This document shows positions 1-14,998 of a stretch of 64,000 nt of DNA, piece by piece. The first letter of the stretch is position 1. Each line of letters begins with the position of its first letter. The stretch lies in NCBI RefSeq assembly GCF_000172795.2, contig NZ_CP020947.1, positions 4,171,001-4,235,000 on the forward strand, read 5' to 3'. The notes beneath the pieces are model-generated. The model ran no database searches. It was not told the DNA's origin and worked only from the letters and a program-made list of their open reading frames with translations. A program made the translations under genes and the position numbers. This stretch comes from Rhizobium sp. CIAT894 (GTDB lineage: Bacteria > Pseudomonadota > Alphaproteobacteria > Rhizobiales > Rhizobiaceae).

Positions 1-313
1 GGCCGATGCCCTGATATTCGGGGCGGAGATAAAGCTCGTAAATCTCGCCTTCCTGCGGCAGAGCGCGGGCGCGATTGAGGCCGAGCGTGGCGTAGCCGGC
101 AACCGTTCCGGCAACATCGAGAACCAGGAGCGTTGCCGGTCCGCGCGTCGCCTTGCGCCACCAGGTTTCCCCGCGCCGCTCGATCATCTGTGTCAGCGCC
201 CGATGCGGAATGATGCCCGCATAGGTGTGCTGCCAGGCGAGCCTGTGGGTTTCCGATATGGCCCGGGCATCGTGCGGTTCGGCCCGCCGGACATCGATCG
301 ACAACGTCTTCAT
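1..313 (-). CDS. GNAT family N-acetyltransferase (partial, N-terminal part)
   Basis: The first 104 codons of an acetyltransferase whose carboxyl end lies beyond the left edge of the window. Translation from the ATG at 313 begins MKTLSIDVRRAEPHDARAI, a typical GNAT first strand and helix, and reaches LYLRPEYQGIG, the start of motif A that binds the acetyl-CoA pyrophosphate, exactly where the window ends. GNAT proteins move an acetyl group from acetyl-CoA to an amine; nothing here tells the substrate. It is a separate unit from typA: both run leftwards, but a strong terminator (463-491) ends typA before it. An AT-rich stretch at about 395-435 probably holds its promoter. Family assignment is firm, specificity unknown. 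Confidence 0.8.
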   Translation of the reverse strand, partial: MKTLSIDVRRAEPHDARAISETHRLAWQHTYAGIIPHRALTQMIERRGETWWRKATRGPATLLVLDVAGTVAGYATLGLNRARALPQEGEIYELYLRPEYQGIG

Positions 314-462
314 AACGTTTACTCTGGTCCTGCCAAAGGCAATTAACCATATGCGGCCAGCGCATCGTGATCGATTGCCCACAGACTTGATATGTGGACG
401 ACAGATAAATTTTAACGCTTTTTTAACGATTGTCACAAGTCGGAATCAGCGCAGCGCACAAC

Positions 463-491
463 AAAAAACCCCGGCAGCAAGGCCGGGGTTT
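463..491 (-). terminator. Rho-independent terminator of typA
   Basis: A perfect 10-bp stem (AAACCCCGGC at 466-475 pairing with 482-491) with a 6-nt loop, followed on the minus strand by a run of T. It lies 21 nt beyond the typA stop codon. Confidence 0.85.
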
Positions 492-511
492 CAAATGCTG
501 TTTCCAAGGGC

Positions 512-2332
512 TCAAAGAGCCGCTTTGGACTTTTCGAAACGCTTGCGATCGTTTGCGTCGAGATACATCTTGCGCAGACGAATGTTCTTCGGCGTCACTT
601 CCATCAGTTCGTCATCCTGGATCCAGGAGAGCGCGCGATCGAGCGTCATGCGGATCGGCGGCGTCAGCTTCACCGCTTCGTCCTTACCGGCAGCGCGGAT
701 GTTGGTGAGCTGCTTGCCCTTCAGCACGTTGACTTCAAGGTCATTGTCGCGCGAATGGATGCCGATGATCATGCCGGCATAGACCTTTTCGCCCGGCTCG
801 ATGATCATCGGGCCGCGATCTTCCAGGTTGAACATCGCATAGGCGACGGCTTCGCCGGAAGCGTTGGCGAGCAGCACGCCGTTGACGCGGCCACCGATCA
901 CACCCTTGTAGGGCTGGTAGTCGTGGAACAGGCGGTTCATGATCGCCGTGCCGCGCGTATCGGTCAGCAGTTCCGACTGATAGCCGATCAGGCCACGGGT
1001 CGGTGCGTAGAAACGCAGGCGAAGACGGTTGCCGCCCGACGGACGCAGCTCGACCATTTCGGCCTTGCGCTCGGACATCTTCTGCACGACGACACCCGAA
1101 TGTTCTTCATCGACGTCGACGACGACTTCTTCGATCGGCTCGAGAAGCTGGCCGCTTTCATCCTTGTGCATCACGACGCGCGGACGCGACACGGCAAGCT
1201 CGAAGCCTTCGCGACGCATGGTTTCGATGAGAACAGCAAGCTGAAGTTCGCCGCGACCGGACACGTAGAACGAGTCCTTGCCTTCGGCTTCTTCGATCTT
1301 CAGCGCGACGTTGCCCTCGGCTTCCTTGAAGAGACGGTCGCGGATGACGCGGCTCGTTACCTTGTCGCCTTCGGTGCCGGCCAGCGGGCTGTCGTTGACG
1401 ATGAAGGACATGGTGACCGTCGGCGGGTCGATCGGCTGCGCCTTCATGGCTTCCGAGACCGCCGGATCGCAGAAGGTGTCGGCGACGGTGCCCTTGGAGA
1501 GGCCGGCGATCGCGACGATGTCGCCTGCATGCGCTTCTTCGATCGCCGTGCGCTCGATGCCGCGGAAGGCGAGGATCTTGGAGATGCGGCCGGTTTCGAT
1601 CAGCTTGCCATCCTGGCCGAGAACCTTGACGGCCTGGTTCGGCTTGATCGAGCCCGATGCGATGCGACCGGTGATGATGCGGCCGAGGAAGGGGTTGGCT
1701 TCGAGGATCGTGCCGATCATGCGGAACGGGCCTTCTTCGACCGTCGGCTCCGGGACATGCTTGAGCACCAGGTCGAGAAGCGGTGCAAGGCCCTCGTCCT
1801 TCGGGCCTTCCGGATTGACGTTCATCCAGCCGTCGCGACCGGAACCATAGAGGATCGGGAAATCCAGCTGCTCGTCGGTCGCGTCGAGATTGGCGAAAAG
1901 ATCGAAGACTTCGTTGATGACTTCTTCGTGGCGGCCATCCGGACGGTCGATCTTGTTGATCGCGACGATCGGGCGAAGGCCGACCTTCAGCGCCTTGGAG
2001 ACGACGAACTTGGTCTGCGGCATCGGGCCTTCGGAGGAGTCGACGAGAACGATGGCGCCATCCACCATCGAGAGAATGCGCTCGACCTCACCGCCGAAGT
2101 CGGCGTGGCCGGGGGTGTCGACGATGTTGATGCGGACACCCTTCCACTCGACCGAGGTTGCCTTGGCGAGAATGGTGATGCCGCGTTCTTTTTCGAGATC
2201 GTTCGAGTCCATCACGCGTTCGGCGACACGCTGATTTTCGCGGAACGAGCCGGACTGTTTCAGAAGCTCGTCCACCAGGGTCGTCTTGCCATGGTCAACG
2301 TGCGCGATGATCGCGATATTGCGAAGTGCCAT
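512..2332 (-). CDS. typA: Translational GTPase TypA/BipA
   Basis: A ribosome-associated GTPase of the EF-G/LepA superfamily, needed in many bacteria for growth at low temperature or under stress and for late 50S assembly. The 606-residue length is the family norm. G motifs are intact: P-loop AHVDHGKTT at residues 10-18, DTPGH (G3) and NKID (G4), followed by the beta-barrel domain II, two EF-G-like domains and the BipA-specific carboxyl domain (motif [17 protein letters not shown] near residue 440). It starts at the ATG at 2332, giving [16 protein letters not shown]. The 157-bp gap to the peptidase gene upstream suggests its own promoter; a strong terminator follows. Identification is secure. 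Confidence 0.97.
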
Positions 2333-2440
2333 ATGTCAAATCTCTGAGGCTGGGGCGCACGCTCGTGAGGACGCGCCTATTAGTTTGGGGCGTCCATACA
2401 GTTTTTTTTGCGTTTGCGAAAGGGGGGAACGCGCGAAAGC

Positions 2441-2466
2441 TGCGGCATGGCTGCTGCCATGCCGCA
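2441..2466 (-). terminator. Hairpin downstream of the M3 peptidase gene
   Basis: A perfect 11-bp stem (TGCGGCATGGC, 2441-2451, with 2456-2466) and a TGCT loop, 24 nt past the peptidase stop codon. No T-run follows on the minus strand, so it may be a 3'-end-stabilising hairpin or weak terminator rather than a full intrinsic terminator. Confidence 0.45.
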
Positions 2467-2489
2467 TCGAAGCGTGTCATCAAATTGTC

Positions 2490-4577
2490 TTAGGCGTCGC
2501 TGCCTGTCAATTCCTCGAAGGTTGAAAGTCCCTTTTTCAGAAGCATCGCATTCGGGCTCGGCAGCTTGCCGCGGAAGGCCTTGTACGCATCCTCCGGATC
2601 GACCGAGCCGCCGACAGAATAGATGTTTTCCTTGAGCTTGCGCGCCATCGCGCCGTTGAAGGCGTCTCCCGTCTCCTCGAAGGCAGCGAAAGCGTCGGCG
2701 TCGAGCACCTCCGACCACATGTAAGAGTAATAGCCGGCCGAATAACCGCCGGAAAAGATGTGCTGGAAGTGCGGCGTCGCATGGCGCATGACGATCGATT
2801 TCGGCATGCCGATCTCGGCCAGCACCTCCGCCTGCACCGCCATCGGGTCGGCGACCGCCTCCCGCGTGTGAAAGGCCATATCGACAAGCGCCGACGAGGT
2901 GAACTCGACGGTGTTGAAGCCGGCATTGAAGGTGCGGGCGGCCAGTACCTTGTCGAGCAGCGCCTGCGGCATCGGCTCGCCGGTTTCGACATGCACGGCA
3001 TAACGCTTCAGAATATCGGGCACCGTCAGCCAGTGCTCATAGAGCTGCGACGGCAGCTCTACGAAGTCGCGCGAAACGCCGGTGCCGGAGACGGATGGGT
3101 AGGTGACGTTGGAAAGCATGCTGTGCAACGCGTGGCCGAATTCGTGGAACAGCGTGCGCGCATCGTCGAGCGACAGCAGCGCCGGCCTGCCTTCCGCCGG
3201 CTTGGCGAAGTTGCAGACATTATAGATGATCGGCAGCTCGCCGTGGCGGCCGTTCTTCAGTTCCAGCCTGTGCTGCGATTGCAGCGAGCTCATCCAGGCG
3301 CCTGATCGCTTCGAGCCGCGAGCGAAATAATCGCCGAGGAAGAGAGCAACCAGCCTGTCTTCGCGATCCCTGATTTCAAACACCCGGACATCCGGGTGAT
3401 AGGCGGCCACATCCTTCTTCTCGACGGCGCGGATACCGAACAGCCGGCCGGCCACATCGAAGCAGGCCTCGATGATCTTCTCGAGCTGCAGATAGGGCTT
3501 GAGCTCGGCCTCGGAGAAGTCGAACTTCCGCGCCCGGATCTTTTCGGCATAGTGGCGCCAGTCCCATGGCATCACCTCGTGATTGCGCCCCTCCTCGGTA
3601 ATCAGCGCCGATATATCGGCCTCTTCCTCGCCGGCGCGCTTCACTGCTCGCGCCCAGACGGCTTTCAGCAGATCGTTCACCGCACCCGCCGTCTTCGCCA
3701 TGGTGTTGTCGAGCTTCAGCTCGGCGAAATTGCCGTAACCGAGCAGTGTCGCCACCTGATGACGCAGGGCCAGGGTCTGCCTGATGACGGCTCGATTGTC
3801 CGTCGCGCCGTCATTTTCGCCGCGCGCCACCCATGCCTTGAAAGCCTGCTCGCGCAGATCGCGGCGCTCCGAGAAGGTCAGGAACGGCTCGATGATCGAG
3901 CGTGACAGCGTCACCGCATATTTACCCTCTTCGCCGCGTTCGCGCGCTGCCGCCGCCATTGCGTCGCAAAGGAATTCCGGCAGTCCGTCGAGCTCGGCTC
4001 CATCGGAAAGCACCAGCGCCCAGGCCGTCTCGTCGGCCAGCACGTTCTGCCCGAATTGCGTCCCGAGGCCGGCAAGCTTTTCATTGATCGCCGCGAGCTT
4101 CTCCTGCTCGGCCTTCTCGAGCTTGGCGCCCGACTTGACGAAGCCTTTCCAGTGGCGCTCCAGCACGCGCGCCTGTTCGAGCGTCAGGCCAAGGCTCTCA
4201 CGTTTTTCCCAGAGCGTGTCGATGCGGGCGAAAAGTGCCGCATTCATCCCGATCTTCGAATAGTGGCGCGACATTTTCGGCGAGATCTCCCGCTCCAGCG
4301 CCTGGATCACGTCATTGGTATGGGCGCCCGCCTTGTTCCAGAAAAGTGCGGAAACGCGCGACAGCGCATCGCCGGCGATCTCCAGCGCCACGACCGTATT
4401 GTCGAATGTCGGGGCATCGCCGTTGGCGGCGATTTCGTCGATCTCCGCTTCATGGGCGGCAAGCGCCGCATCGAAGGCAGCGGCAAAATCGCCGTCGTCG
4501 ACAGCATCGAAACGCGGCAGGCCGTGAAGACCGTCCCAGTTGACCAGCGCCGGATTGACATTGCGGGGAGAAGACAT
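2490..4577 (-). CDS. M3 family metallopeptidase (Dcp / oligopeptidase A type)
   Basis: A zinc metallopeptidase that cleaves short peptides in the cytoplasm or periplasm during protein turnover. The zinc site HEFGH (HExxH) lies near residue 480 in the context RTLFHEFGHALHSML, as in thimet oligopeptidases; the downstream zinc-binding glutamate region is also present. About 695 residues, normal for Dcp and PrlC. A longer reading frame begins at 4598, but the ATG at 4577 (MSSPRNVNPALVNWDG) has AAGGAA seven bases upstream, so I prefer it. There is no signal peptide, so a cytosolic location is likely. Whether it acts as a dipeptidyl carboxypeptidase or as an endo-oligopeptidase cannot be decided from sequence alone. 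Confidence 0.92.
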   Translation of the reverse strand: MSSPRNVNPALVNWDGLHGLPRFDAVDDGDFAAAFDAALAAHEAEIDEIAANGDAPTFDNTVVALEIAGDALSRVSALFWNKAGAHTNDVIQALEREISPKMSRHYSKIGMNAALFARIDTLWEKRESLGLTLEQARVLERHWKGFVKSGAKLEKAEQEKLAAINEKLAGLGTQFGQNVLADETAWALVLSDGAELDGLPEFLCDAMAAAARERGEEGKYAVTLSRSIIEPFLTFSERRDLREQAFKAWVARGENDGATDNRAVIRQTLALRHQVATLLGYGNFAELKLDNTMAKTAGAVNDLLKAVWARAVKRAGEEEADISALITEEGRNHEVMPWDWRHYAEKIRARKFDFSEAELKPYLQLEKIIEACFDVAGRLFGIRAVEKKDVAAYHPDVRVFEIRDREDRLVALFLGDYFARGSKRSGAWMSSLQSQHRLELKNGRHGELPIIYNVCNFAKPAEGRPALLSLDDARTLFHEFGHALHSMLSNVTYPSVSGTGVSRDFVELPSQLYEHWLTVPDILKRYAVHVETGEPMPQALLDKVLAARTFNAGFNTVEFTSSALVDMAFHTREAVADPMAVQAEVLAEIGMPKSIVMRHATPHFQHIFSGGYSAGYYSYMWSEVLDADAFAAFEETGDAFNGAMARKLKENIYSVGGSVDPEDAYKAFRGKLPSPNAMLLKKGLSTFEELTGSDA

Positions 4578-4785
4578 CGGAGAATTCCTTTTTGGCATGC
4601 AGGTGGATCGTCATATAGGAGAGCCGCCCTGGAATTGGTATGTTGCAGGCAAGCGCCTTTCGCCTCGCCTGCCAAATCTGGTGGACAAAAATTGACGCGC
4701 TAGAATTAACCATTTGTTAACGATTGACGCGAATCACGCGCAGGCGCTAGTTTCTGGATATTCTTCCTGTAAGGGGACATGCGTC

Positions 4786-5217
4786 ATGGAAATTTTTTCT
4801 GTGCGGTCTTCTCAGAGTTTGCTATTTAAAAACAATCCTAATAACGCAAAAACTTCGAAGACCTCTGATATTGAAATCGAGACCAAGGCTCCAGCCCCGG
4901 CCTCATTCCAGATCGAAGACAATCTCGACGAAGGGCCGGATTTCACAGCGGTCAGCCCCGGAGAGCTGCGCAATTACGCACGCCAGAGCTTCGACAGCGG
5001 CCTGATCGATCAGAATACCTACGCAGCGATCTCAGAACCCCTGCCGATGCATGCGATCGATCCGCTCGGCAACGTCATCGATCTCTCCAGCGTCACCGAC
5101 GGCACCAGCTTCAACTTCCTCGATTATTACAAGAGCCAGCTCCAGGTCGCCATGTCGATCGGCGATCCCGACGAGGTTCGGACGCTGAATTCGATCGTCA
5201 ATTTTCTAGACGGCTGA
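4786..5217 (+). CDS. Hypothetical protein, 143 residues
   Basis: I do not recognise this protein. It starts at the ATG at 4786, nine bases after AAGGGG, although the frame is open from 4714. The first 40 residues are Lys/Asn/Ser-rich and look disordered; their DNA is AT-rich compared with neighbours. The rest is acidic and contains SPGELRNYARQSFDSGLI and a carboxyl segment around NFLDYYKSQLQVAMSIGDPDE. There is no signal peptide, membrane segment or cysteine. Several flagellar and export-associated small proteins of rhizobia have a similar appearance, but that is only an impression. Convergent with the exporter gene that begins directly after its stop codon. Confidence 0.6.
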   Translation: MEIFSVRSSQSLLFKNNPNNAKTSKTSDIEIETKAPAPASFQIEDNLDEGPDFTAVSPGELRNYARQSFDSGLIDQNTYAAISEPLPMHAIDPLGNVIDLSSVTDGTSFNFLDYYKSQLQVAMSIGDPDEVRTLNSIVNFLDG

Positions 5218-5859
5218 TCAGGCCTTGCGCCAGCCGAGCAGGCCGGGTGTGGCATGCCACAAGGCCTGGGCGGCAAAACCCATGAAGAGCACGCCGGAGC
5301 AACGCACGATCAGCCGCTCATGGGCGCGATAGAAGCGCCGCACCGCGCCCGCGCCGATGACGCCGATCAGGATGATGTCGGCCGTGACGAACCCGACGAA
5401 GGACACGCCGAGCAGCAGCGGGAGCGCCTCGAAATCGAGCGCCCCGGCCGAGCCTGCAACCAGTGCGGTGAAGGTGGCGAGCGCCACCGGATAACCCTTC
5501 GGATTGGTGACGCCGAAGATCAGCCCGCGGCGAAACGGCCTCTCGACCATCACGAGAGCCTGCCCTTCGGCTTTCGGCTTGGCGTTGACGGCGTTCCAGC
5601 CGATCCAGGCGAGATAGAAACCGCAGGCAAGGCCGAGCAGATCGAAGACGAAGGTTCCGATCGTCTTGGCCCCGACGATCGCGATCAGCGCCAGCGACGA
5701 CCAGATGAGATCTCCGACCAGATGCCCCATCATGAAGAAGGCGCCGGCCTTGCGGCCCTGCCCGGCGCCGATGCCGAGCAGTTGCAGGAAGGCGGGTCCG
5801 GGAATGAGCACGTAGAAGAGTGCCGCCAGAAAGGCGCCGAAGACCAGGGACTGGGTCAT
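5218..5859 (-). CDS. LysE/RhtB family exporter
   Basis: An inner-membrane exporter of the LysE/RhtB superfamily, which pumps amino acids or related small molecules out of the cell. The protein (about 213 residues) starts at MTQSLVFGAFLAALFYVLIP; IPGPAFLQLL is the family's first-helix signature (normally PGP). Six hydrophobic segments are visible, and GVTNPKGYPVALATF matches the conserved NPK motif after helix 3. The frame is open upstream to 6006, but the ATG at 5859 fits the family and has GGAG about ten bases upstream. Substrate cannot be deduced. It ends directly against the convergent small gene at 4786-5217. Confidence 0.85.
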   Translation of the reverse strand: MTQSLVFGAFLAALFYVLIPGPAFLQLLGIGAGQGRKAGAFFMMGHLVGDLIWSSLALIAIVGAKTIGTFVFDLLGLACGFYLAWIGWNAVNAKPKAEGQALVMVERPFRRGLIFGVTNPKGYPVALATFTALVAGSAGALDFEALPLLLGVSFVGFVTADIILIGVIGAGAVRRFYRAHERLIVRCSGVLFMGFAAQALWHATPGLLGWRKA

Positions 5860-5980
5860 GGAAATACTCCGGAGGATGATTTGGCAGACTAAGCGATCGC
5901 CGCCGTCCGTCAAGGGTGGCGAAACAGCCGTGACGCCCGGTGTAGTCCAACCATCTGGTGAGATCGGCCAGCCGATCCGT

Positions 5981-6649
5981 TCAAATTCTTCTGTCGAACA
6001 CAGCAAGGGGCGCCTTCAGCCGATAGAGCGTCGTCGGCCGCCGGGCTCGCTCGGTCTGTCGTTTTTCGCCTTCGACCACCTCGAGCAGATCCAGATCGTT
6101 GATCTTGCGGCGAAAGGCGCTTTGATCAAGCCGTTCGCCCATCACCGTTTCATAGATTGCCTGCAGTTCCGACATGGTGAAAATCTCCGGAAGAAGTCTC
6201 GCCGGAATGGTCGAATAGGCGCCCTTGCCGCGCAACCGCTCCAGCGCCGCGGTGACGATCTCATTATGGTCGAAAGGCAGCTTGCCGGCCGCCTCGGCGG
6301 GCCGCAATTCCAGAGGGCTTGTGCCGCCCGTAAGCGCTGCCTGCGGCACCAATGCAAAATAGGCAATCGATACCGACCAGTCGCGGGGGTCGCGGCGCGC
6401 CGAAGCGAAGGTCGCCAGTTGTTCGAAGAAAATGTCCGCGAGCCCTGCCTTGGCCTTGAGGATACGCCGCACTGCCGCCTCTGCATCGACGTCCTCGTCG
6501 ATGTGCAGATAACCGCCGATCAGTGCCGGCACGCCGGCAAACGGTTCGGCGGACCGCGGCAGCAGCGCCACGCACAACCGCCCTTCGTGTAGCGTCAGCA
6601 AGACGATGTCGACGGTCACGATTGGTCGCGCGAATTGAGCCTCTGCCAT
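5981..6649 (-). CDS. Nudix-domain winged-helix regulator (NrtR-like)
   Basis: A two-domain protein: an amino-terminal Nudix-like fold (VTVDIVLLTLHEGRLCVALLP, then GGYLHIDEDVDAEAAVRRIL where a Nudix box would lie) and a carboxyl winged helix (SELQAIYETVMGERLDQSAF with RRKINDLDLLEVVEGEKR), ending in the arginine-rich GRP-like tail of the NrtR family. The Nudix box lacks the full REUxEE glutamate set, so it should sense a ligand rather than hydrolyse it. NrtR proteins repress NAD or sugar genes and release DNA on binding ADP-ribose-like ligands. The start at 6649 has GGGAG six bases upstream; 6655 is an alternative. It is divergent from the VWA-like/PurA-like genes across a 185-bp region with TTGCAA repeats, which implies that it controls them. 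The ligand is inference. Confidence 0.82.
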   Translation of the reverse strand: MAEAQFARPIVTVDIVLLTLHEGRLCVALLPRSAEPFAGVPALIGGYLHIDEDVDAEAAVRRILKAKAGLADIFFEQLATFASARRDPRDWSVSIAYFALVPQAALTGGTSPLELRPAEAAGKLPFDHNEIVTAALERLRGKGAYSTIPARLLPEIFTMSELQAIYETVMGERLDQSAFRRKINDLDLLEVVEGEKRQTERARRPTTLYRLKAPLAVFDRRI

Positions 6650-6719
6650 CAGCATCTCCCGGCCAATTGTTCGACTGGCGTTCTCCTCGCTCTCATAGCC
6701 GCCAACCGTGAAAATGACA

Positions 6720-6757
6720 ATTTGCAAATAGCTACTTGCAAATTGCATTTTGCAAGT
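6720..6757. promoter_or_regulatory. TTGCAA operator array (predicted Nudix-regulator site)
   Basis: Three TTGCAA hexamers start at 6722, 6736 and 6750, each exactly 14 bp apart, with a near copy (TTGCAT) at 6743. ATTTGCAAAT at 6720-6729 is a perfect 10-bp palindrome; 6734-6757 is a 24-bp palindrome with a single mismatched pair (positions 10 and 15), whose arms are ACTTGCAAA and TTTGCAAGT. The array lies between the divergent regulator and the VWA-like gene and covers the likely promoter. Confidence 0.75.
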
Positions 6758-6764
6758 TTATATT
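6736..6764 (+). promoter_or_regulatory. Predicted sigma-70 promoter of the VWA-like/PurA-like operon
   Basis: TTGCAA at 6736-6741 can serve as a -35 box, followed by a 17-bp spacer and TATATT at 6759-6764. The -35 box and spacer coincide with the operator palindrome, so a bound repressor would block RNA polymerase directly. Confidence 0.55.
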
Positions 6765-6833
6765 ATTGACATCAACGCGGTGGTGGGCAGACACCCGAGC
6801 CGATCGCCACGGCAACAGCAAAGGAGTGATGCC

Positions 6834-7736
6834 ATGGGTATGGGACGTTTCAGCACGGCCGACTGGGCAGCCTACAACGCACGTCATGTGGATGGCCGCA
6901 GCCGGTCGGAAATATTCGGCGCCACCGGCATCGACCCGCGGTTCGATCCGTCGCGCTTTTCCACTCGCGAGAGCCGCGACAGCGCTTACAATCCACAATC
7001 GACCCCGATTATTCTGGCCTCGGATGTGACCGGTTCGATGGGCATGATCGCCCACGAACTGATGCGCGGCGGGCTCATCACCCTGACATCGGAGATCTAC
7101 GACCGCCGTCCGGTATCCGATCCGCATATCATGGTGGCGGCGGTGGGAGATGCCTATACCGATTCCGCACCGTTGCAGGCCACCCAGTTCGAGGCCGACA
7201 TCTCGCTTGCCAGCCAGATCCGCGCCTTGTGGCTGGAAGGCAATGGTGGCGGCAATGGCGGCGAGAGCTACAGCGCCGCCCATCTTTTGGCGGCCCTCAA
7301 AACCTCGACCGATGCCTTCGAAAGACGCGGCCGCAAGGGTTATCTCTTCACCATTGGCGATGAGCCGGTTCATAACGGCCTGACCGCCCCTCAGATTGCC
7401 CGCATCTTCGGCATCCAACCGCCGCACGGTCTGAGCGCCCGGGAATGCCTGGCGATGGCTGAGAGATCCTACGAGGTCTTCCACATCGTCATCCGCGAGG
7501 GCTATGCGGCCAACGGGCTCGAGCGGGTGCTCGCGAGTTGGCAGCCGCTGCTGCCCGGCCGCACCTTCGTGCTCGATGATCACAGGCGCATTGCCGAGCT
7601 GGTGGTTTCTATCATCGAGATCACCGAGGGTCGCGACGCCGGCGACGTGGCCGCCAGTTGGCCCGGTGCGGCAGCCGCGGTCGTCGCCAAAGCCATCGGC
7701 GAACGCCCGAAGCGGCACCTGCTGCCGTTCTTCTAA
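6834..7736 (+). CDS. VWA-like protein in a Nudix-regulated operon
   Basis: A 300-residue cytosolic protein resembling the von Willebrand factor A fold. IILASDVTGSMG near residue 62 looks like a metal-ion-dependent adhesion site (DxTGS in place of the usual DxSxS), and GNGGGNGGESYSAAHLL further on fits the second MIDAS loop; GYLFTIGDEPVH could supply a later strand. The start is ATG 6834, seven bases after AAGGAG (6821-6826); the open frame extends upstream to 6750 but without a ribosome site. The gene is followed after 130 bp by the PurA-like gene, with two hairpins in the gap. I know of no assigned function; VWA proteins commonly assemble complexes or present metal-bound substrates. Confidence 0.75.
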   Translation: MGMGRFSTADWAAYNARHVDGRSRSEIFGATGIDPRFDPSRFSTRESRDSAYNPQSTPIILASDVTGSMGMIAHELMRGGLITLTSEIYDRRPVSDPHIMVAAVGDAYTDSAPLQATQFEADISLASQIRALWLEGNGGGNGGESYSAAHLLAALKTSTDAFERRGRKGYLFTIGDEPVHNGLTAPQIARIFGIQPPHGLSARECLAMAERSYEVFHIVIREGYAANGLERVLASWQPLLPGRTFVLDDHRRIAELVVSIIEITEGRDAGDVAASWPGAAAAVVAKAIGERPKRHLLPFF

Positions 7737-7738
7737 TC

Positions 7739-7762
7739 GGGGAAGTGCCAGGCACTTTCCCC
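7739..7762 (+). terminator. Hairpin between the VWA-like and PurA-like genes
   Basis: GGGGAAGTGCC (7739-7749) pairs with GGCACTTTCCCC (7751-7762), with one bulged base and a very short loop. It starts two bases after the stop codon. The only T-run is short (GGGGGTTT), so it may attenuate transcription or set an mRNA 3' end rather than end the operon. Confidence 0.5.
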
Positions 7763-7783
7763 GGGGGTTTAAGCAAAGGGTTG

Positions 7784-7802
7784 GAGCGGTTCTGAACCGC
7801 TC
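7784..7802. repeat. 19-bp perfect inverted repeat
   Basis: GAGCGGTTC, a central T and GAACCGCTC form a perfect odd palindrome in the 130-bp gap before the PurA-like gene. It may be a second transcript hairpin or a protein-binding site; I recall similar GAGCGGTTCTG elements as common in rhizobial intergenic DNA, but cannot check that here. Confidence 0.5.
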
Positions 7803-7866
7803 TGGGCCCATACCTTCCAGAACCAAAGCCCCGGCGTGCTCCGGGCGACATTTTGAGGAGCAGAGC

Positions 7867-9078
7867 ATGAGCACCCAGGCACAGGCCGTGATCGGCGCGC
7901 TTTATGGCGACGAAGGTAAGGGACTGATGGTCGATCGCCTCGCCGCAGCCACGCCGGGGGCCGTGGTGGTTCGCAGCAATGGCGGGGCTCAGGCCGGTCA
8001 TACCGTGCTTGGCGACGCCGGCGCCCGCCATGTCTTTCACCATGTCGGCGCGGGCAGCTTTGCCGGAGCTGTCACCCATTTCAGCCGTTTCTTCGTCGCC
8101 CATCCGATGCTGCTGCTCGACGAATTGGCCGCCCTCGGCCAACTGGGTATAAAGCCCGAGATCAGCAGCGACCCGCGTGCCCCGGTCACCACACCCTTCG
8201 ACGTCATCATCAACCAGGCCTTGGAACTGGCGCGCGGCACTGCCCGTCACGGCAGTTGCGGCCTCGGCTTCGGCGAAACCATCGAGCGCAATCTGCGCCC
8301 GGAATTCTCCCTCTCGACAAAGGACCTGTTTCGTCCCGATCTGCATGCCCGGCTTGTTTCCATCCGCGATGCCTGGGTGCCTGTCCGGCTGGCCGCGCTC
8401 GGGATCACCGCCTTGCCCACAGAATTGGCCGTCGCACTGACTGACGAAATCACCATTGCCCGCTTCGAGGCCGATTGCGCCGCCTATCTCGACCGCGTCG
8501 CGCTCTGGCCCGACCGACGGCTGTGCGAACGCGGCCCTGTCATCTTCGAAGCGGCACAGGGCCTGGAGCTTGATCAGGACCGCGGCGTGTTTCCCCACGT
8601 CACCCGTTCGAATACCGGGCTCGCGAACATGCTGGCGATCTCAGCCGAGGCCGGCATCACAGAGCTGGACGCGACATATGCGACACGCTGCTATACCACC
8701 CGGCATGGCGCAGGGCCGCTCAAGGGGGAGGTTCCCGCACTGCCCGGCATCAATGTCGTCGACCCCACCAACGCTCCGAACGAGTGGCAAGGTACTCTGC
8801 GGCTCGCCTCGCTCGATCTCGACACGTTGCGCCGGGCCATTGCCCGCGATCTGACCTTGGACCGCGGCGGCATCACCGTCAGGGCCGGGCTGGCCGTGAC
8901 CTGTCTCGATCAGGCCGAAGATGCATTTGTCATCACGGATCGCGGCGAGGCAATCCGGCTTGATCCTGTCGAAGCGGCGTCTGAGATCGCCGATCTCGCC
9001 GGCCTGCCGCTCTGGGCCGAAAGCTGGGGACCGCGCCGCGGCGATATCAGGCTGTGTATGGATGCGGCCGCCGCATGA
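7867..9078 (+). CDS. Adenylosuccinate synthetase-like protein (divergent PurA paralogue)
   Basis: A 403-residue member of the adenylosuccinate synthetase fold, which normally joins IMP and aspartate using GTP. The phosphate-binding glycine loop is clear (GALYGDEGKG at residues 10-19, keeping the catalytic Asp), AGHT keeps the catalytic His, and VIFEAAQGLELDQDRG plus YTTRHGAGPLKGE match core motifs. Two substrate regions do not: the Arg-rich TGRRRRTGW loop that holds aspartate is replaced by NEWQGTLRLASLD, and the TKLD guanine-recognition motif reads TCLDQ. It is therefore unlikely to be the housekeeping PurA. It starts at 7867 with GAGGAG before it (MSTQAQAVIGAL) and lies behind the VWA-like gene. 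The real reaction is unknown. Confidence 0.85.
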   Translation: MSTQAQAVIGALYGDEGKGLMVDRLAAATPGAVVVRSNGGAQAGHTVLGDAGARHVFHHVGAGSFAGAVTHFSRFFVAHPMLLLDELAALGQLGIKPEISSDPRAPVTTPFDVIINQALELARGTARHGSCGLGFGETIERNLRPEFSLSTKDLFRPDLHARLVSIRDAWVPVRLAALGITALPTELAVALTDEITIARFEADCAAYLDRVALWPDRRLCERGPVIFEAAQGLELDQDRGVFPHVTRSNTGLANMLAISAEAGITELDATYATRCYTTRHGAGPLKGEVPALPGINVVDPTNAPNEWQGTLRLASLDLDTLRRAIARDLTLDRGGITVRAGLAVTCLDQAEDAFVITDRGEAIRLDPVEAASEIADLAGLPLWAESWGPRRGDIRLCMDAAAA

Positions 9079-9093
9079 ATCGCAGCAATCAAA

Positions 9094-9121
9094 GAGCCCG
9101 CGCGGCGATGCCGGCGGGCTC
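9094..9121. terminator. Bidirectional terminator-like hairpin
   Basis: GAGCCCGC (9094-9101) pairs with GCGGGCTC (9114-9121). It lies between the convergent PurA-like and argG genes and can serve both; A-rich sequence on the left side gives T on the argG transcript. Confidence 0.65.
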
Positions 9122-9147
9122 CCGTTCAATTCGAAAGCGAAGCGTGA

Positions 9148-10371
9148 TTACTTCGCGAGGTTGCGCTTGCCGAGCGTGCGCAGGCGCAGCGCGTTGAGCT
9201 TGATGAAGCCGGCTGCGTCCTTCTGGTCGTAAGCGCCCTGATCGTCCTCGAAGGTGACGAGCTTGTCGGAATAGAGCGACTTTTCGCTTTCACGGCCGAT
9301 GACCATGACATTGCCCTTATAGAGCTTCAGCGTCACTTCGCCTTCGACATGCTCCTGGCTCTTGTCGATCAGCGCCTGCAGCATCTCGCGCTCCGGCGAG
9401 AACCAGAAGCCGTAATAGATCAGCTCGGCGTAACGCGGCATGATCTCGTCCTTGAGATGGGCAGCGCCGCGATCGAGGGTGATCGATTCGATGGCGCGGT
9501 GCGCCGAGAGCAGGATCGTGCCGCCGGGCGTTTCGTAGACGCCGCGCGACTTCATGCCGACGAAGCGGTTCTCGACGAGGTCGAGACGGCCGATGCCGTT
9601 GTCGCGGCCATAATTGTTGAGCGTTGCGAGCAGCGTCGCCGGCGACATCTCGACACCGTTGATCGAGACGGCATCGCCCTTACGGAAGCCGACCTTGATC
9701 ACTTCAGCCTTGTCGGGCGCGGCCTCCGGCGAGATCGTGCGCATATGCACATACTCAGGAGCTTCCTGAGCGGGATCCTCGAGAACCTTGCCCTCGGAAG
9801 AGGAATGCAGCAGGTTGGCGTCGACGGAGAACGGCGCCTCGCCCTTCTTGTCCTTGGCGACCGGGATCTGATGCTGTTCGGCGAAGGCGAGCAGGTCGGT
9901 GCGGCTCTTGAACGCCCAGTCGCGCCACGGCGCGATGATCTTGATGTCGGGGTTCAGCGCATAGGCGGACAGCTCGAAACGAACCTGGTCGTTGCCCTTG
10001 CCGGTGGCGCCATGGGCGATCGCATCCGCGCCCGTCTTGCGGGCGATATCGATCAGATGCTTGGAAATCAGCGGACGGGCGATCGAAGTGCCGAGCAGAT
10101 AAACGCCCTCATAGACGGCGTTGGCGCGGAACATCGGGAAGACGAAATCGCGCACGAATTCCTCGCGCACGTCCTCGATATAGATTTCCTTGATGCCGAG
10201 CATCTCGGCCTTCTTGCGCGCCGGCTCCAGCTCTTCGCCCTGGCCGAGATCGGCGGTGAAAGTGACGACTTCGGCGCCGAGCTCCGTCTGCAGCCACTTC
10301 AGGATGATCGAGGTGTCGAGACCGCCGGAATAGGCGAGAACGACTTTCTTCACGTCTTTGTATGATGCCAT
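9148..10371 (-). CDS. argG: Argininosuccinate synthase
   Basis: Catalyses ATP-dependent condensation of citrulline with aspartate to argininosuccinate, the penultimate step of arginine synthesis, in the cytosol. The 407-residue protein shows the N-type ATP-pyrophosphatase loop AYSGGLDTS near residues 13-21, the [12 protein letters not shown] signature around residue 120 and the SDA-like tetramerisation tail. It starts at ATG 10371 ([17 protein letters not shown]). It is monocistronic: convergent with the PurA-like gene and divergent from the dehydrogenase. Its aspartate chemistry is coincidentally related to that of PurA, but there is no operon link. Identification is secure. Confidence 0.97.
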
Positions 10372-10548
10372 GATGATGAGGTCCGTTGCATAAAAGGCCG
10401 GCGAAAACCCGGTGTCGCGGCACTTTTAGCGAGATTGGCGCGTGACGCAAGGGCAAGTGCGAGGCCACCGGCGCCGATAGGGTTTGACAGTGCGAAAGCG
10501 GAGCCCATATTCGCCAACGTCCTAGCAATGATCGAGGAGAGGCTCCCC

Positions 10549-11400
10549 GTGACCAATATTCAAGACATTTTCAAGAAATCCAATGTTGCCGTCATCACCG
10601 GCGGTGCTTCCGGCATCGGCTTTGCTGCCGCAAAACACTTTGCCAAGGCCGGCGTGAGCGTCGTCATCGCCGATCTCGGCGGTGATCGGCTGGCGAATGC
10701 CGCAGACGAACTCAAGGCCATTGCCGGCGAGGAAGAGGTGATGGCGGTCGAGACCGACGTCGCGAGTAGGGACTCTCTGGAGGCGCTCGAACGTGCGGTG
10801 CTCCAGCGTTTCGGCCGCGTGCATGTGCTGATGAACAATGCCGGCATCGGCCCGGAAACCTCGATCTTCAGCCCGCAGGCGAACTGGGACCATATCTTCG
10901 CCGTCAACCTGATGGGCGTCATCAACGGCACGCGCACCTTCGGGCCGAAGATGCTGTCGCACGGCGAGCCCGGCCTGATTATCAACACCGGCTCCAAGCA
11001 GGGCATCACCACGCCGCCCGGCAATCCGGCCTACAACATCTCCAAATCGGGCGTGAAGGTCTTTACCGAAGCGCTGGAGCACGAGCTTCGCAACATCGAA
11101 GGCGGGAAGATCTCCGCCCATCTTCTCATCCCCGGCTTCGTCTTCACCGGCCTCACCCAGGGCGACCGCACGGAAAAACCGGCCGCCGCCTGGACGCCGG
11201 AACAGACGGTCGACTTCATGATCGAAAGCCTCGAGCGCGGCGACTTCTATATCCTCTGCCCCGACAACGACGTGGCCCGTCCGGTCGACGAGCGCCGCAT
11301 GGCCTGGGCGGCCGGCGATATCATCGAGAACCGCCCGCCGCTGTCGCGCTGGCACAAGGACTATGCCGACAAGTTCAAGGCCTTCCTCGACCAGAAGTGA
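10549..11400 (+). CDS. SDR family NAD(P)-dependent oxidoreductase
   Basis: A classical short-chain dehydrogenase of 283 residues. The Rossmann motif TGGASGIG occupies residues 17-24, NNAG follows near residue 98, and the catalytic Tyr and Lys are in YNISK near residues 161-165. I start it at the GTG at 10549, preceded by GAGGAGAGG; the frame is open back to 10435, but that stretch has no SDR similarity. The substrate cannot be told from sequence; the residue after the second strand (D in IADLGGD) favours NAD over NADP. It is transcribed away from argG and is followed after 84 bp by an exporter gene in the same direction. Confidence 0.88.
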   Translation: MTNIQDIFKKSNVAVITGGASGIGFAAAKHFAKAGVSVVIADLGGDRLANAADELKAIAGEEEVMAVETDVASRDSLEALERAVLQRFGRVHVLMNNAGIGPETSIFSPQANWDHIFAVNLMGVINGTRTFGPKMLSHGEPGLIINTGSKQGITTPPGNPAYNISKSGVKVFTEALEHELRNIEGGKISAHLLIPGFVFTGLTQGDRTEKPAAAWTPEQTVDFMIESLERGDFYILCPDNDVARPVDERRMAWAAGDIIENRPPLSRWHKDYADKFKAFLDQK

Positions 11401-11484
11401 TCGGCACTATGAGAAGGTTTGATTGGTAATTTTCTGAAAGCCGGGTAAAAAATCGCCCGATCTTTCCGGCTTTCAGAGCGTGCC

Positions 11485-12126
11485 ATGGATTTCCTGCCGA
11501 GCCTCTCAACCCTATTGGCATTTGCCGCCGCGACGCTGCTGCTCGCGGCGACGCCCGGTCCCGACATGACGCTGTCGATCAGCCGTTCGCTGACCCAGGG
11601 CAAGAAAGCGGCTCTTTTCGTCGTCATCGGCACCAGCCTCGGCATCATCGTCCACACCATGCTGGTCGCCTTCGGCATTTCGGCGCTGATCACCGCCTCG
11701 CCGACGGCCTTCCTGATCCTGAAGACCGGTGGCGCTGCCTATCTGTTCTGGCTCGCCGTGCAGGCGATCCGCTTCGGCTCGAAGCTCACCGTCGCCAAGG
11801 TCGAGGAGCAGAAGGGGACAGCGCTTTCGAACATCTCGTCCGGCTTCTGGGTCAATCTTCTGAACCCGAAGGTCATCATCTTCTTCATGACCTTCCTGCC
11901 GCAATTCGTCAGCGCCGGCGATCCCGCCGTCACGCAGAAGCTGCTTTTCCTTGGGCTTTGTTTCATTCTGTTCGCCATGCCGGTCAATGCCGCCGTGGTC
12001 CTTGCCGCCGACCGGCTGGCCTCCTGGCTGCAGAACAACAGGAAGGTGCTGCGCGGCATGGACTATACCTTCGCCGGCGTCTTCTCGATCTTCGCCGCCA
12101 AGATCCTGCTCACCCAGGCGAGATGA
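11485..12126 (+). CDS. LysE/RhtB family translocator
   Basis: A 213-residue inner-membrane amino-acid exporter. The signature ATPGPDMTLSISRSLTQGK in the first loop and the NPKVIIFFMTFLPQF motif after the third hydrophobic segment are characteristic of RhtB proteins (homoserine, threonine or leucine efflux). About six membrane segments are visible. It starts at ATG 11485. It lies 84 bp behind the SDR gene, possibly cotranscribed, and is convergent with the ABC transporter genes. Substrate is not predictable. Confidence 0.9.
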   Translation: MDFLPSLSTLLAFAAATLLLAATPGPDMTLSISRSLTQGKKAALFVVIGTSLGIIVHTMLVAFGISALITASPTAFLILKTGGAAYLFWLAVQAIRFGSKLTVAKVEEQKGTALSNISSGFWVNLLNPKVIIFFMTFLPQFVSAGDPAVTQKLLFLGLCFILFAMPVNAAVVLAADRLASWLQNNRKVLRGMDYTFAGVFSIFAAKILLTQAR

Positions 12127-12159
12127 TCAGGCGGGCAGACCGGTAAAACCGGCCGCGGG

Positions 12160-12954
12160 TTAGCCGATCAGCAAAGCATCGTCATCGAGCGTCTGGCCGC
12201 GCATCTTGCGGAACATGGCGATCAGGTCCTCGACCTGCAGGTTCTTCCTGTTGTCACCTGCCACGTCGAGAACGATCTCGCCGCCATGCAGCATGATCGT
12301 GCGGTGGCCGTAATCCAGCGCCTGGCGCATGGAATGCGTCACCATCATCGTCGTCAGCTTGCGCTCGGCCACGATCTTCTGCGTCAGGTTCATCACGAAC
12401 TCCGCCATCCCGGGATCGAGCGCTGCCGTATGTTCGTCGAGCAGCAGCACTTCGGAGCCTGCCAGCGTTGCCATGACAAGCGACACGGCCTGGCGCTGCC
12501 CGCCCGAGAGCAGATCCATGCGGTCCTTCAGCCGGTTTTCCAGCCCGAGGTTCAGTTCGGCAATCCGCTCCTTGAAATAGTCCCGGCGTTTACCGCCAAG
12601 CGCTGGCGCAAGCCCGCGCTTCTCGCCGCGCCGGGCGGCCAAAGCAAGGTTTTCCTCGATCGACAGCGCGCCGCAGCTTCCCGTCAGCGGATCCTGGAAG
12701 ACGCGCGCCACCAGGCCGGCACGCGCCGCCGTGGACTTGCGCGTCACTTCAGTCTTGCCGATCAGCACCTGTCCCTCGCTCGGAATGACATCGCCCGCGA
12801 GCACGCCGAGCAGCGTCGATTTGCCGGCGCCGTTGGAGCCGATGACGGTGACGAAGGAGCCTTGCTCGATGGTCAGGTTGACGCCGTTCAGCGCCTGTTT
12901 CTGCAGCGGCGTGCCGCGCCCGAAAACGACCTTGATGTCTTTGACGCTGATCAC
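12160..12954 (-). CDS. ABC transporter ATP-binding protein (TrpZ-like)
   Basis: The ATPase of a three-gene uptake system. Walker A GSNGAGKST lies near residues 39-47, the ABC signature LLSGGQRQA near residue 148 and Walker B VLLLDEHTAALDP near 171, followed by the switch histidine in MMVTHSMRQAL. The 264-residue protein overlaps the permease gene by 4 bp (ATGA), so the two are translationally coupled. The order substrate-binding protein, permease, ATPase matches the TrpXYZ-type systems with a PF04392 binding protein, proposed to import aromatic amino acids in Gram-positives. That substrate is only a suggestion here. Confidence 0.9.
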   Translation of the reverse strand: MISVKDIKVVFGRGTPLQKQALNGVNLTIEQGSFVTVIGSNGAGKSTLLGVLAGDVIPSEGQVLIGKTEVTRKSTAARAGLVARVFQDPLTGSCGALSIEENLALAARRGEKRGLAPALGGKRRDYFKERIAELNLGLENRLKDRMDLLSGGQRQAVSLVMATLAGSEVLLLDEHTAALDPGMAEFVMNLTQKIVAERKLTTMMVTHSMRQALDYGHRTIMLHGGEIVLDVAGDNRKNLQVEDLIAMFRKMRGQTLDDDALLIG

Positions 12955-13829
12955 GATGCGGCACCTCCGCGAAGACGGGGAAGGACGAGCGCCACGGTCA
13001 CCAGCACCGCCGTTACGAAGTTGAGGTCGGAGGCCTGCAGGCCGATGACGTCGCTCGACAGCGCCAACTGGATGGCGATGCGATAGAGGATCGAGCCGAG
13101 CACGCAGCCGATCAGCGCGACCAGCAAACCTCGGCGCCCGAGCAGCGTCTCGCCGATGATGACGGCGGCAAGCCCGACGACGATCGTGCCGACACCCGAG
13201 GTGACGTCGGCAAAGCCGTTCGTCTGGGCAAACAAGGCGCCGCCGAGCGCCACCAGCGCATTCGAGATCGCCATGCCGAGATAGATCTGCCGGCTGGTAT
13301 CGACACCCTGGGCGCGGGCCATCCGTGCATTGGCGCCGGTCGCCCGCATCGCCAGTCCCGCATCGCTTTCCAGGAAACGCCAGACCAGGATGAGCGCGAC
13401 GATCACAAGCACGCCGATGAAGAGCGGCCGCACGTAGAAATCGCGAAGGCCGTGGCCGAAGAACGGGCTGATCATCGTATCGGCATTGATAAGGGCGACA
13501 TTGGGTTTACCCATCACCCTGAGATTGACGGAAAACAGCGCGATCATCGTCAGGATCGAGGCGAGCAGGTTGAGGATCTTGAAGCGCACGTTGAGCAGCG
13601 CCGTCACCATGCCGGCCGCCGCACCCGCCGCCATCGCGATCAAAGCCGCAAGCCAGGCATTGACGCCGGCAATGATCAGCACTGCGGTCACCGCCGCGCC
13701 GAGCGGAAAGGAGCCGTCGACCGTCAGGTCGGGAAAATCAAGCACGCGGAAGGCGAGATAGACGCCGAGAGCGACGAAGGAATAGACCAGGCCGAGCTCG
13801 ACGGCGCCCCAGAATGCGATTTGGCTCAA
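12951..13829 (-). CDS. ABC transporter permease
   Basis: A 292-residue inner-membrane permease of the branched-chain-amino-acid/TrpY superfamily (BPD_transp_2). About eight hydrophobic segments are visible, and the cytosolic coupling loop contains the conserved ARMARAQGVDTSRQIYLGMA. It begins MSQIAFWGAVELGLVYSFVA at 13829 and ends inside the start of the ATPase gene. A hairpin in the 122-bp gap upstream probably lowers its expression relative to the binding protein, as is usual in such operons. Confidence 0.9.
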   Translation of the reverse strand: MSQIAFWGAVELGLVYSFVALGVYLAFRVLDFPDLTVDGSFPLGAAVTAVLIIAGVNAWLAALIAMAAGAAAGMVTALLNVRFKILNLLASILTMIALFSVNLRVMGKPNVALINADTMISPFFGHGLRDFYVRPLFIGVLVIVALILVWRFLESDAGLAMRATGANARMARAQGVDTSRQIYLGMAISNALVALGGALFAQTNGFADVTSGVGTIVVGLAAVIIGETLLGRRGLLVALIGCVLGSILYRIAIQLALSSDVIGLQASDLNFVTAVLVTVALVLPRLRGGAAS

Positions 13830-13894
13830 GGCTTTCAGCCCCTTTTTGTTTCCGTTCCGCCCGTCGCGAAACCGCAGCTTTTTAATACGAAGAA

Positions 13895-13918
13895 CCGCCC
13901 CCGTGCAAACGGGAGCGG
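13895..13918 (-). terminator. Attenuating hairpin inside the ABC transporter operon
   Basis: CCGC-CCCGT (13895-13904) pairs with ACGGG-GCGG (13909-13918) around a short GCAA loop; on the minus strand it is followed by TTCTT. Its place between the binding-protein and permease genes fits partial termination or protection of the upstream mRNA. Confidence 0.55.
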
Positions 13919-13951
13919 CTGTATTCGACTAAACATTGAAATGGCGGCCGA

Positions 13952-14905
13952 TTATTCGATGACCTTGTTGGCGCGCGACAGCACGCTTTCCGGCAGGGTG
14001 ACGCCCATCTTGGCAGCCGCGGCCTTGTTGACCACCAGATCGCTGCCGGCGGCAGTCTTGACCGCGATGTCGCCGGGGTTCTCGCCCTTCAGCACGCGCA
14101 CAACGATTTCGCCGGTCTGCTTGCCGACATCGTAATAGTTGAAGCCGAGGGCGGCGATCGAACCGCGCGAAACCGAATCCGTATCGGCGGTGAAGAGCGG
14201 CAGCTTGCTCTCCTCAGCAACCGCGACGGCGCCCTCGAGCGCCGAGATGATCGTGTTGTCAGTCGGGACGTAGATCACATCGGCGCGGCCGACGAGGGCG
14301 CGGGCGGCACCCTGAACCTCGGCCGATTTGGTGGCAGCCGATTCAACCACCGTCAGGCCGGCCTTCTCGGCTTCGACCTTCAAGACGGCCAGCAGCGAAA
14401 CCGAGTTCGCCTCGCCTGAATTGTAGAGATACCCGATGGTTTTAACGTTTGGCACGATTTCCTTGATCAGCGCCAGGTGCTCGGCGACCGGCGACATGTC
14501 GGAAAGGCCGGTGACATTGCCGCCGGGCTTGTCCATGTTCTTGACGAGCTGGGCGCCGAGCGGATCGGACACGGCGGTGAAAACGACCGGAATGTCGCGC
14601 GTCGCGGAGACGACGGCCTGGGCGGACGGCGTGGAGATCGGCACGATCACATCAGGCTCTTCGCCGGCGAACTGGCGGGCGATCTGGGCTGCCGTCGCCG
14701 GATTGCCCTGCGCCGATTCGAACAGGAATTTCAGGTTCTCGCCTTCCTTGTAGCCGGCAGCCGTCAGCACGTCGAGAACGCCCTTACGCGCCGCATCCAG
14801 CGCCGGATGTTCGACGATCGCCGTTACGGCAACGGTCACGTTATCGGCCTTTGCAGGCAGCGAAAGCGCCAAAGTGGCGGCAAGAGCGAGCAGAATAGGG
14901 CGCAT
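13952..14905 (-). CDS. ABC transporter substrate-binding protein (PF04392 type)
   Basis: A periplasmic binding protein of 317 residues. MRPILLALAATLALSLPAKADN is a clear signal peptide with cleavage after AKA. The mature protein has the PF04392 (TrpX-like) pattern: TAIVEHPALDAARKGVLDVL, AQIARQFAGEEPDVIVPIST and VVFTAVSDPLGAQLV. It is the first gene of the operon with the permease and ATPase. The family is described as binding tryptophan, tyrosine or related small molecules; the ligand here is not established. Confidence 0.9.
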   Translation of the reverse strand: MRPILLALAATLALSLPAKADNVTVAVTAIVEHPALDAARKGVLDVLTAAGYKEGENLKFLFESAQGNPATAAQIARQFAGEEPDVIVPISTPSAQAVVSATRDIPVVFTAVSDPLGAQLVKNMDKPGGNVTGLSDMSPVAEHLALIKEIVPNVKTIGYLYNSGEANSVSLLAVLKVEAEKAGLTVVESAATKSAEVQGAARALVGRADVIYVPTDNTIISALEGAVAVAEESKLPLFTADTDSVSRGSIAALGFNYYDVGKQTGEIVVRVLKGENPGDIAVKTAAGSDLVVNKAAAAKMGVTLPESVLSRANKVIE

Positions 14906-14998
14906 TTATTTCCTCCTGATTGATTTTGGCGGCACTATTAGGAAAAGCGCATGCTTAAATCAATGCAGGAGAATTGTAGCGAGGATCAAACTTGCTGA

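Follow-up and report, generated by a model that had tools for sequence, protein, structure and literature searches.

Our analysis identified a three-gene cassette at positions 5981-9078 of a 64,000-nucleotide stretch of Rhizobium sp. CIAT894 DNA (NZ_CP020947.1, positions 4,171,001 to 4,235,000; hereafter the window), in which the gene for a Nudix/winged-helix regulator (P0001) is divergent from two plus-strand genes that encode a VWA-fold protein (P0002) and a protein with the fold of the adenylosuccinate synthetase PurA (P0003). With evenly balanced confidence, we read the cassette as a locally repressed response unit tied to the breakdown of nicotinamide adenine dinucleotide (NAD), in which the PurA-like enzyme is a guanosine triphosphate (GTP)-dependent ligase with a partner other than aspartate. 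This reading draws on a near-constant gene pair, a rebuilt active site, and the genes found beside the pair in bacteria and viruses.

The cassette and its conserved gene pair

The features of the cassette are the following:

5981-6649, minus strand: NrtR-type regulator P0001, with a degenerate Nudix sensor and a winged-helix DNA-binding domain
6734-6757, no strand assigned: predicted operator ACTTGCAAAttgcatTTTGCAAGT, with 9-bp arms flanking 6 bases, covering part of the predicted -35 box and spacer
6736-6764, plus strand: predicted sigma-70-type promoter TTGCAA-17-TATATT, a consensus match only, at 9/12 positions
6834-7736, plus strand: VWA-fold protein P0002 (300 amino acids), with the motif DVTGS of the metal ion-dependent adhesion site (MIDAS) type
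7867-9078, plus strand: predicted PurA-fold ligase P0003 (403 amino acids), with a rebuilt aspartate loop and inosine monophosphate (IMP) pocket

A preliminary description of this DNA had noted the regulator divergent from a VWA-like and a PurA-fold gene and had proposed looking for the three as a conserved neighbourhood; the arrangement is confirmed, and more strongly than it was stated there. Relatives of P0003 were collected by a scan of one genome per species (84,980 species; 128 relatives, 79 distinct loci kept) and by a scan of IMG/VR (322 PurA-like relatives, 80 loci kept). In bacteria, 77 of the 79 loci have the VWA gene ahead of the PurA-like gene; in the two misses, L057 and L058, the contig starts 241 and 308 bases, respectively, ahead of the PurA-like match. 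Among viral loci the VWA gene accompanies the PurA-like gene in 79/80, the miss being L116. With the VWA family as bait, a PurA-like protein was found within 3 kb flanks in 77 of 80 viral loci; 45 of these 80 contigs are shared with the first viral set (by contig name), and 32 of the 35 new ones carry the pair. Concerning the three misses, one contig ends 66 bases past the VWA gene (L237), another 2.1 kb past it (L233), and the third has full flanks (L269). Named phages give a similar picture: P0003 has matches in 215 records and P0002 in 207, for the most part in the same groups, and the pair is present in Rhizobium, Vibrio and Bxz1-type Mycobacterium phages. In viral locus L101, VWA-family genes lie on either side of one PurA-like gene. 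Of the 79 bacterial loci, 62 encode a related regulator, which is divergent in 45, upstream in 11 with the strand shared, and downstream in 6; the remaining 17 have none within the sequence covered.

The assignment of P0002 was made by fold: its predicted model is a VWA fold with the MIDAS residues DxS/TxS. P0002 has no match to a Pfam VWA model at E values up to 1, and a sequence search against solved structures gave nothing useful.

Two further protein families accompany the pair. The first, a protein of about 350 residues, combines a J-domain (HPD motif in 75/78) with a C-terminal part that resembles a kinase but seems to have lost the catalytic motifs. This J-domain/degenerate-kinase partner is present in 48/79 bacterial and 29/80 viral loci, mostly as the gene directly 5' of the VWA gene in the loci mapped, and all four members scanned score under the curated cut-off of Pfam DnaJ. 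Mycobacteriophage LRRHood gp253 (L084:4553-5680), annotated as a serine/threonine kinase, is a member, with Pkinase at 7e-9, DnaJ at 1e-3 and the HPD motif. The second family, which has a methionine-rich end in phages, is found in 6/79 bacterial and 23/80 viral loci. The two families are mutually exclusive per locus, and neither is present in 25/79 bacterial loci (including 15 of rhizobial type) or in 28/80 viral ones. The preliminary description, which had proposed the VWA-like protein as the partner of the PurA-fold protein, had overlooked both the phage copies and the J-domain or second-family partner.

The PurA-like protein and its active site

The predicted fold of P0003 matches PurA across its whole length, and P0003 retains the GDEGKG and AGHT motifs. 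Alignments were made with 58 relatives (82, of which 24 were removed as >80% identical) and 69 viral relatives (80, of which 11 were removed), with residue roles as in E. coli PurA. D13, K16, H41, Q224 and T239 are kept in 58/58 and 69/69 relatives, respectively. By contrast with PurA, T301 is replaced by Q and V273 by H in 58/58 and 69/69, N38 by Q in 57/58 and 67/69, T129 by C in 57/58 and 58/69, and T300 by F, Y or W in 54/58 and 62/69 (W in P0003). The aspartate loop, which in PurA includes T300, T301, R303 and R305, is rebuilt in this clade, and one residue shorter; in P0003 it keeps one arginine, aligned to position 306, which could be 305 given a one-residue alignment gap. The PurA motif TKLD reads TCLD in P0003, and relatives have C or H at position 331 and D or N at position 333.

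P0003 also falls below the NCBI equivalog cut-offs for PurA (107.7 vs 402 and 91 vs 395.55 bits). In a tree of 100 sequences cut from 155 (30 of 61 viral sequences drawn at random, and 10 of 11 chosen canonical PurAs, L196 having been missed by a motif filter), the bacterial and phage PurA-like proteins from several bacterial phyla form one clade apart from PurA (EC 6.3.4.4), with bacterial and phage copies interleaved. The altered PurA-fold protein of the preliminary description is upheld: it belongs to a separate branch in which the active site is rebuilt and the catalytic motifs are conserved, and its near-constant VWA neighbour is a further difference from PurA.

A canonical purA is also encoded in the window genome; canonical purA coexists in 24/25 host genomes checked (25 of the 79 loci), the exception being the metagenome-assembled genome of L018. 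A plain second purA was rejected as an identity for P0003, since the pocket changes occur in every relative examined and the canonical gene is present. Membership of the PurZ family was rejected as well, because P0003 reaches 38.8 bits against a 300-bit cut-off; the tree is a weak test of this point, as it holds a single PurZ row on a very long branch. In comparison with the 2-aminoadenylosuccinate synthetases PurZ and DgsS, P0003 retains D13, where phiVC8 PurZ has S, and differs in its loop and pocket residues.

Regulator, operator and NAD genes

P0001 matches Pfam NrtR_WHD at 5e-19, and its Nudix-like domain falls under the Pfam cut-off. Its best relative among solved structures is 3gz5 (1e-32), which we take to be Shewanella NrtR, and its score is below the NCBI NtrR equivalog cut-off (153 vs 400). 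Among the 27 of 63 regulators scanned with Pfam, NrtR_WHD was matched by 27/27, NUDIX by 23/27 and AraR_C by 23/27; by one pattern, a canonical Nudix box is present in 7 of the 63 clustered regulators and absent from 56, P0001 included. P0001 resembles the NrtR, AraR and NadQ regulators in combining a Nudix-like sensor with NrtR_WHD and in its inverted-repeat operator (predicted here) within a divergent intergenic region, and is unlike them in adjoining a VWA-PurA unit and in its sub-cut-off equivalog score. The window genome encodes two further NrtR_WHD proteins. One of them (L098, on contig C5) directly adjoins a gene that is nadA-like by sequence, and is perhaps the genome's regulator of de novo NAD synthesis, which makes P0001 a separate paralogue.

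The promoter-like site is the sole one in 6600-7900, where shuffled sequence gives a mean of 0.4, and the 22-base pattern of the operator has its single perfect copy in the 6.66 Mb genome at the cassette. No sign of a wider regulon was seen among genome matches with at most three mismatches, which number 19 for the forward pattern, some of them overlapping the operator itself, versus 15 for a reversed-pattern control. TTGCAA-type inverted repeats are present at 16 of the 20 related loci inspected (15 rhizobial, counting the diverged copy of L008, and Mesorhizobium L017); Methylobacterium L025 and L028 carry a longer palindrome with the centre TTTGCAAA, L022 has a different short palindrome, and L018 has none. 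The likely start of P0001 is the ATG at 6649 (or 6655); its longest open reading frame (ORF) reaches 6748 and would cover the operator.

By direct reading, both plus-strand genes have a ribosome-binding-like stretch 5' of their ATG. The stretch between the VWA and PurA-like genes has a hairpin (7738-7763) directly 3' of the VWA stop codon, followed at 7784-7802 by another inverted repeat, GAGCGGTTCTGAACCGCTC. Overall, this stretch has an unremarkable predicted RNA fold (z -1.9), and Rfam gave no match in 5000-10500, which includes the hairpin and repeat.

Seven NAD genes were sought in the flanks of the loci (8 kb where available for viral loci, 6 kb for bacterial loci, and 3 kb for the VWA-bait set). 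The 80 viral flanks contain NAMPT in 18 cases, a bifunctional NMNAT-Nudix protein or its Nudix part in 18, NAD kinase in 2, the quinolinate synthase NadA in 1, and a protein resembling phosphoribosyl pyrophosphate (PRPP) synthetase in 1, with at least one NAD gene in 21/80. In the 79 bacterial flanks we found NAMPT-like (4), nicotinamidase-like (3), microbial PARG (3) and PRPP-synthetase-like (3) genes, with any of them in 5/79. NAMPT is upstream in L104, L147, L164 and L177 and downstream in L141, L142, L156, L163 and L171, so that the pairing is not a single frozen order. These independent neighbours make a link to NAD likely. The preliminary description had suggested an NAD-related nucleotide pathway, and this part of its claim gains from the neighbours, whereas what it said of substrate and ligand is retained here as a proposal.

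Several individual loci are worth describing. In viral L148 (4271-7358), genes for NadA and NAD kinase lie directly 3' of the PurA-like gene. In Clostridium L044 (1-3704), L046 (875-3935) and L047 (1-3821), PRPP-synthetase-like, nicotinamidase-like and NAMPT-like genes stand before the cassette, with a PARG gene too in L044 and L047. PRPP-synthetase-like and NAMPT-like genes occur together in these three loci and in viral L101, and the Clostridium synthetase/NAMPT pair could be a NARP1-like unit. Upstream of its VWA-PurA pair, Rhizobium phage RHph_TM61 (L083:2-3192) carries genes for HAD, PRTase_3 (ComF-like) and Nudix proteins, an arrangement seen in this one record; PRTase and HAD genes are tied to Ter systems in PMC7824862. 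In a mixed set of 65 neighbour proteins, which matched 83 Pfam families, only AAA was matched by two members among the 25 families listed, and no shared neighbour function besides the NAD genes appeared among those 25.

A number of observations weigh against the link to NAD breakdown and against the enzyme proposed for it. None of the seven NAD genes was found in 59/80 viral and 74/79 bacterial loci, and in the VWA-bait set they were found in 4/79 and not in 75/79. NAMPT is common in phages generally (1,910 of 50,697 records), and for this reason its nearness to the PurA-like gene was tested. A gene of the NAPRTase family (NAMPT) is present in 24/80 viral records (22/40 and 2/40), and lies within 5 kb of the PurA-like gene in 16 of the 24, against a random mean of 3.1 (0/20,000 simulations as high). 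NAMPT genes are thus nearer than random placement gives, which speaks for the link, in a comparison uncorrected for kinship. In records of at least 100 kb, with one twin dropped, it lies that close in 6/12 against 0.6 expected; in the other 8 of the 24 records the distance is 6 to 275 kb. No NAD gene was recognised in window 1-16000, where the ORFs were read by eye and not scanned for this purpose. Relatives of P0001 sense other ligands, as AraR does arabinose, and AraR_C is among the models matched by the scanned regulators. Taken literally, the motif N-x-[FYWH]-Q-[GD] occurs in 82/84 bacterial and named-phage copies, but in only 47/80 viral ones. Since the scans used patterns derived from P0003 (one loop pattern and one P-loop pattern for genomes, and HGSCG and GDEGKG for viruses), conservation at those spots is partly selected. 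Finally, a search of the window genome for the J-domain partner, made with a single Mesorhizobium query and no positive control, gave no match, so that the cassette here may be a reduced version or one whose function has shifted.

Mechanism, alternatives and meaning

In the mechanism that we propose, the Nudix/winged-helix protein would occupy the palindrome over the predicted promoter and, by analogy with NrtR, would be released once its Nudix domain takes up an NAD cleavage product, ADP-ribose being the most likely. The induced PurA-like protein would then most likely use GTP to activate a purine-nucleotide oxygen through the PurA residues that it keeps, acting on a nucleotide of the NAD/ADP-ribose pool or on IMP, and would join the activated nucleotide to a partner other than free aspartate. 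The VWA protein probably uses its metal site to hold a peptide or protein, in a client- or assembly-type role, and in many other bacteria and phages may be assisted by the J-domain/degenerate-kinase protein or by the alternative second family. The module is also present in phages, in some cases beside NAD-making genes. More tentatively, and with rather less than even expectation, the clade may constitute a new NAD-linked ligase that uses the cleavage of GTP to join or restore the purine moiety of an NAD/ADP-ribose-type nucleotide with a non-aspartate partner, guided by the VWA protein and its J-domain/degenerate-kinase co-factor and used by both hosts and phages during NAD breakdown.

A reading compatible with this one, which we consider possible though below an even chance, is that the cassette is an accessory system of phage-host conflict, countering or causing NAD loss and carried by both sides. 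Its distribution is consistent with this: P0003 relatives (E <1e-40) are patchy in hosts (9/60 same-genus and 1/40 other-family genomes, and 3/289 genomes drawn from the class, own genome included in each survey), viral contigs of up to 494 kb often carry the family, and phage and bacterial copies interleave on the tree. However, the cassette has no PADLOC match, and the window pair lies between ordinary-looking chromosomal genes, namely a LysE-type transporter gene and an argG-like gene (named by reading the sequence); a 407-residue family, probably argG, recurs in 11 clustered loci. With such neighbours, the cassette is not in a visible defence island.

PurA chemistry targets the 6-oxygen of hypoxanthine, and it is conceivable, if unlikely, that the enzyme repairs adenine as a special case of the non-aspartate ligase proposed above, using GTP and a non-aspartate amine donor to re-aminate deaminated NAD or ADP-ribose, in which hypoxanthine replaces adenine, or some other nucleotide that contains hypoxanthine. 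N38, T129 and R143, which presumably hold the 5'-phosphate of IMP in PurA, are changed or unconserved while D13, H41 and Q224 stay, a combination that could make room in the pocket for a longer nucleotide, and NAD genes lie nearby. On the other hand, no deaminase is among the families listed for the neighbours scanned (25 of 83 families in the mixed set), and substrate recognition is not something that sequence can reveal.

The replacement of T300 and T301 of the aspartate loop by an aromatic residue (or His) and Q, together with the near-constant VWA neighbour and often a J-domain protein, would also fit a protein-conjugating ligase, in which the VWA/J-domain partner holds a protein and an amine of that protein receives the activated purine nucleotide. 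The vWA gene of Nudix-regulated ADP-ribose systems is read as a peptide-binding chaperone in PMC9503650. Nevertheless, VWA domains also act as metal- or complex-assembly factors. We know of no such conjugate, and we regard this reading as distinctly unlikely. An equally slim prospect is ordinary purine supply, with a divergent PurA making the adenosine monophosphate precursor under stress or phage infection: T301 and V273 are replaced throughout, canonical purA is present in nearly all hosts checked, and PurA function involves no VWA partner. The commonest NAD neighbours handle nicotinamide or nicotinamide mononucleotide, and related regulators sense ADP-ribose (PMC9503650). Cleavage of NAD yields both kinds of product, and for this reason we favour a response to its breakdown over plain purine supply.

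The closest described systems include the ARG-centred ADP-ribose systems, which have Nudix or WYL regulators and a vWA protein (Iyer et al., 2022, PMC9503650). They share with the cassette the Nudix-HTH regulator, the vWA protein and an occasional ADP-ribose hydrolase, represented here by the PARG genes in 3/79 bacterial loci, and differ in that the cassette encodes a PurA-like enzyme; neither 'adenylosuccinate' nor 'PurA' occurs in the main text of that paper. A Pfam scan of the three cassette genes found no ARG among them. PMC7824862 notes NAD genes of phages, along with other vWA proteins and Ter operons; PMC12774641 describes NARP1 (Adps and Namat), and PMC7139368 a jumbo phage with NAD genes as well as an adenylosuccinate synthase in a different phage. 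The cassette resembles phage NadV/NatV salvage and NARP1 in having the NAMPT fold and NMNAT-Nudix proteins as neighbours; unlike the cassette, neither pathway includes a PurA-like or VWA protein, as far as these sources (PMC7139368, PMC12774641) are covered. No description of a PurA-like/VWA pair was found in the open literature, and older subscription sources may hold one.

Annotated copies of the PurA-like protein are named 'adenylosuccinate synthetase' or '2-aminooxy adenylosuccinate synthetase', names that the active site does not support. The family reaches across several bacterial phyla and hundreds of viral contigs (the 322 relatives), and would be a further example, alongside PurZ, of a PurA fold recruited for different chemistry. 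If the link to NAD is right, the cassette would represent an unexplored part of the phage-host contest over NAD, with a regulator, an operator and an enzyme that are directly testable.

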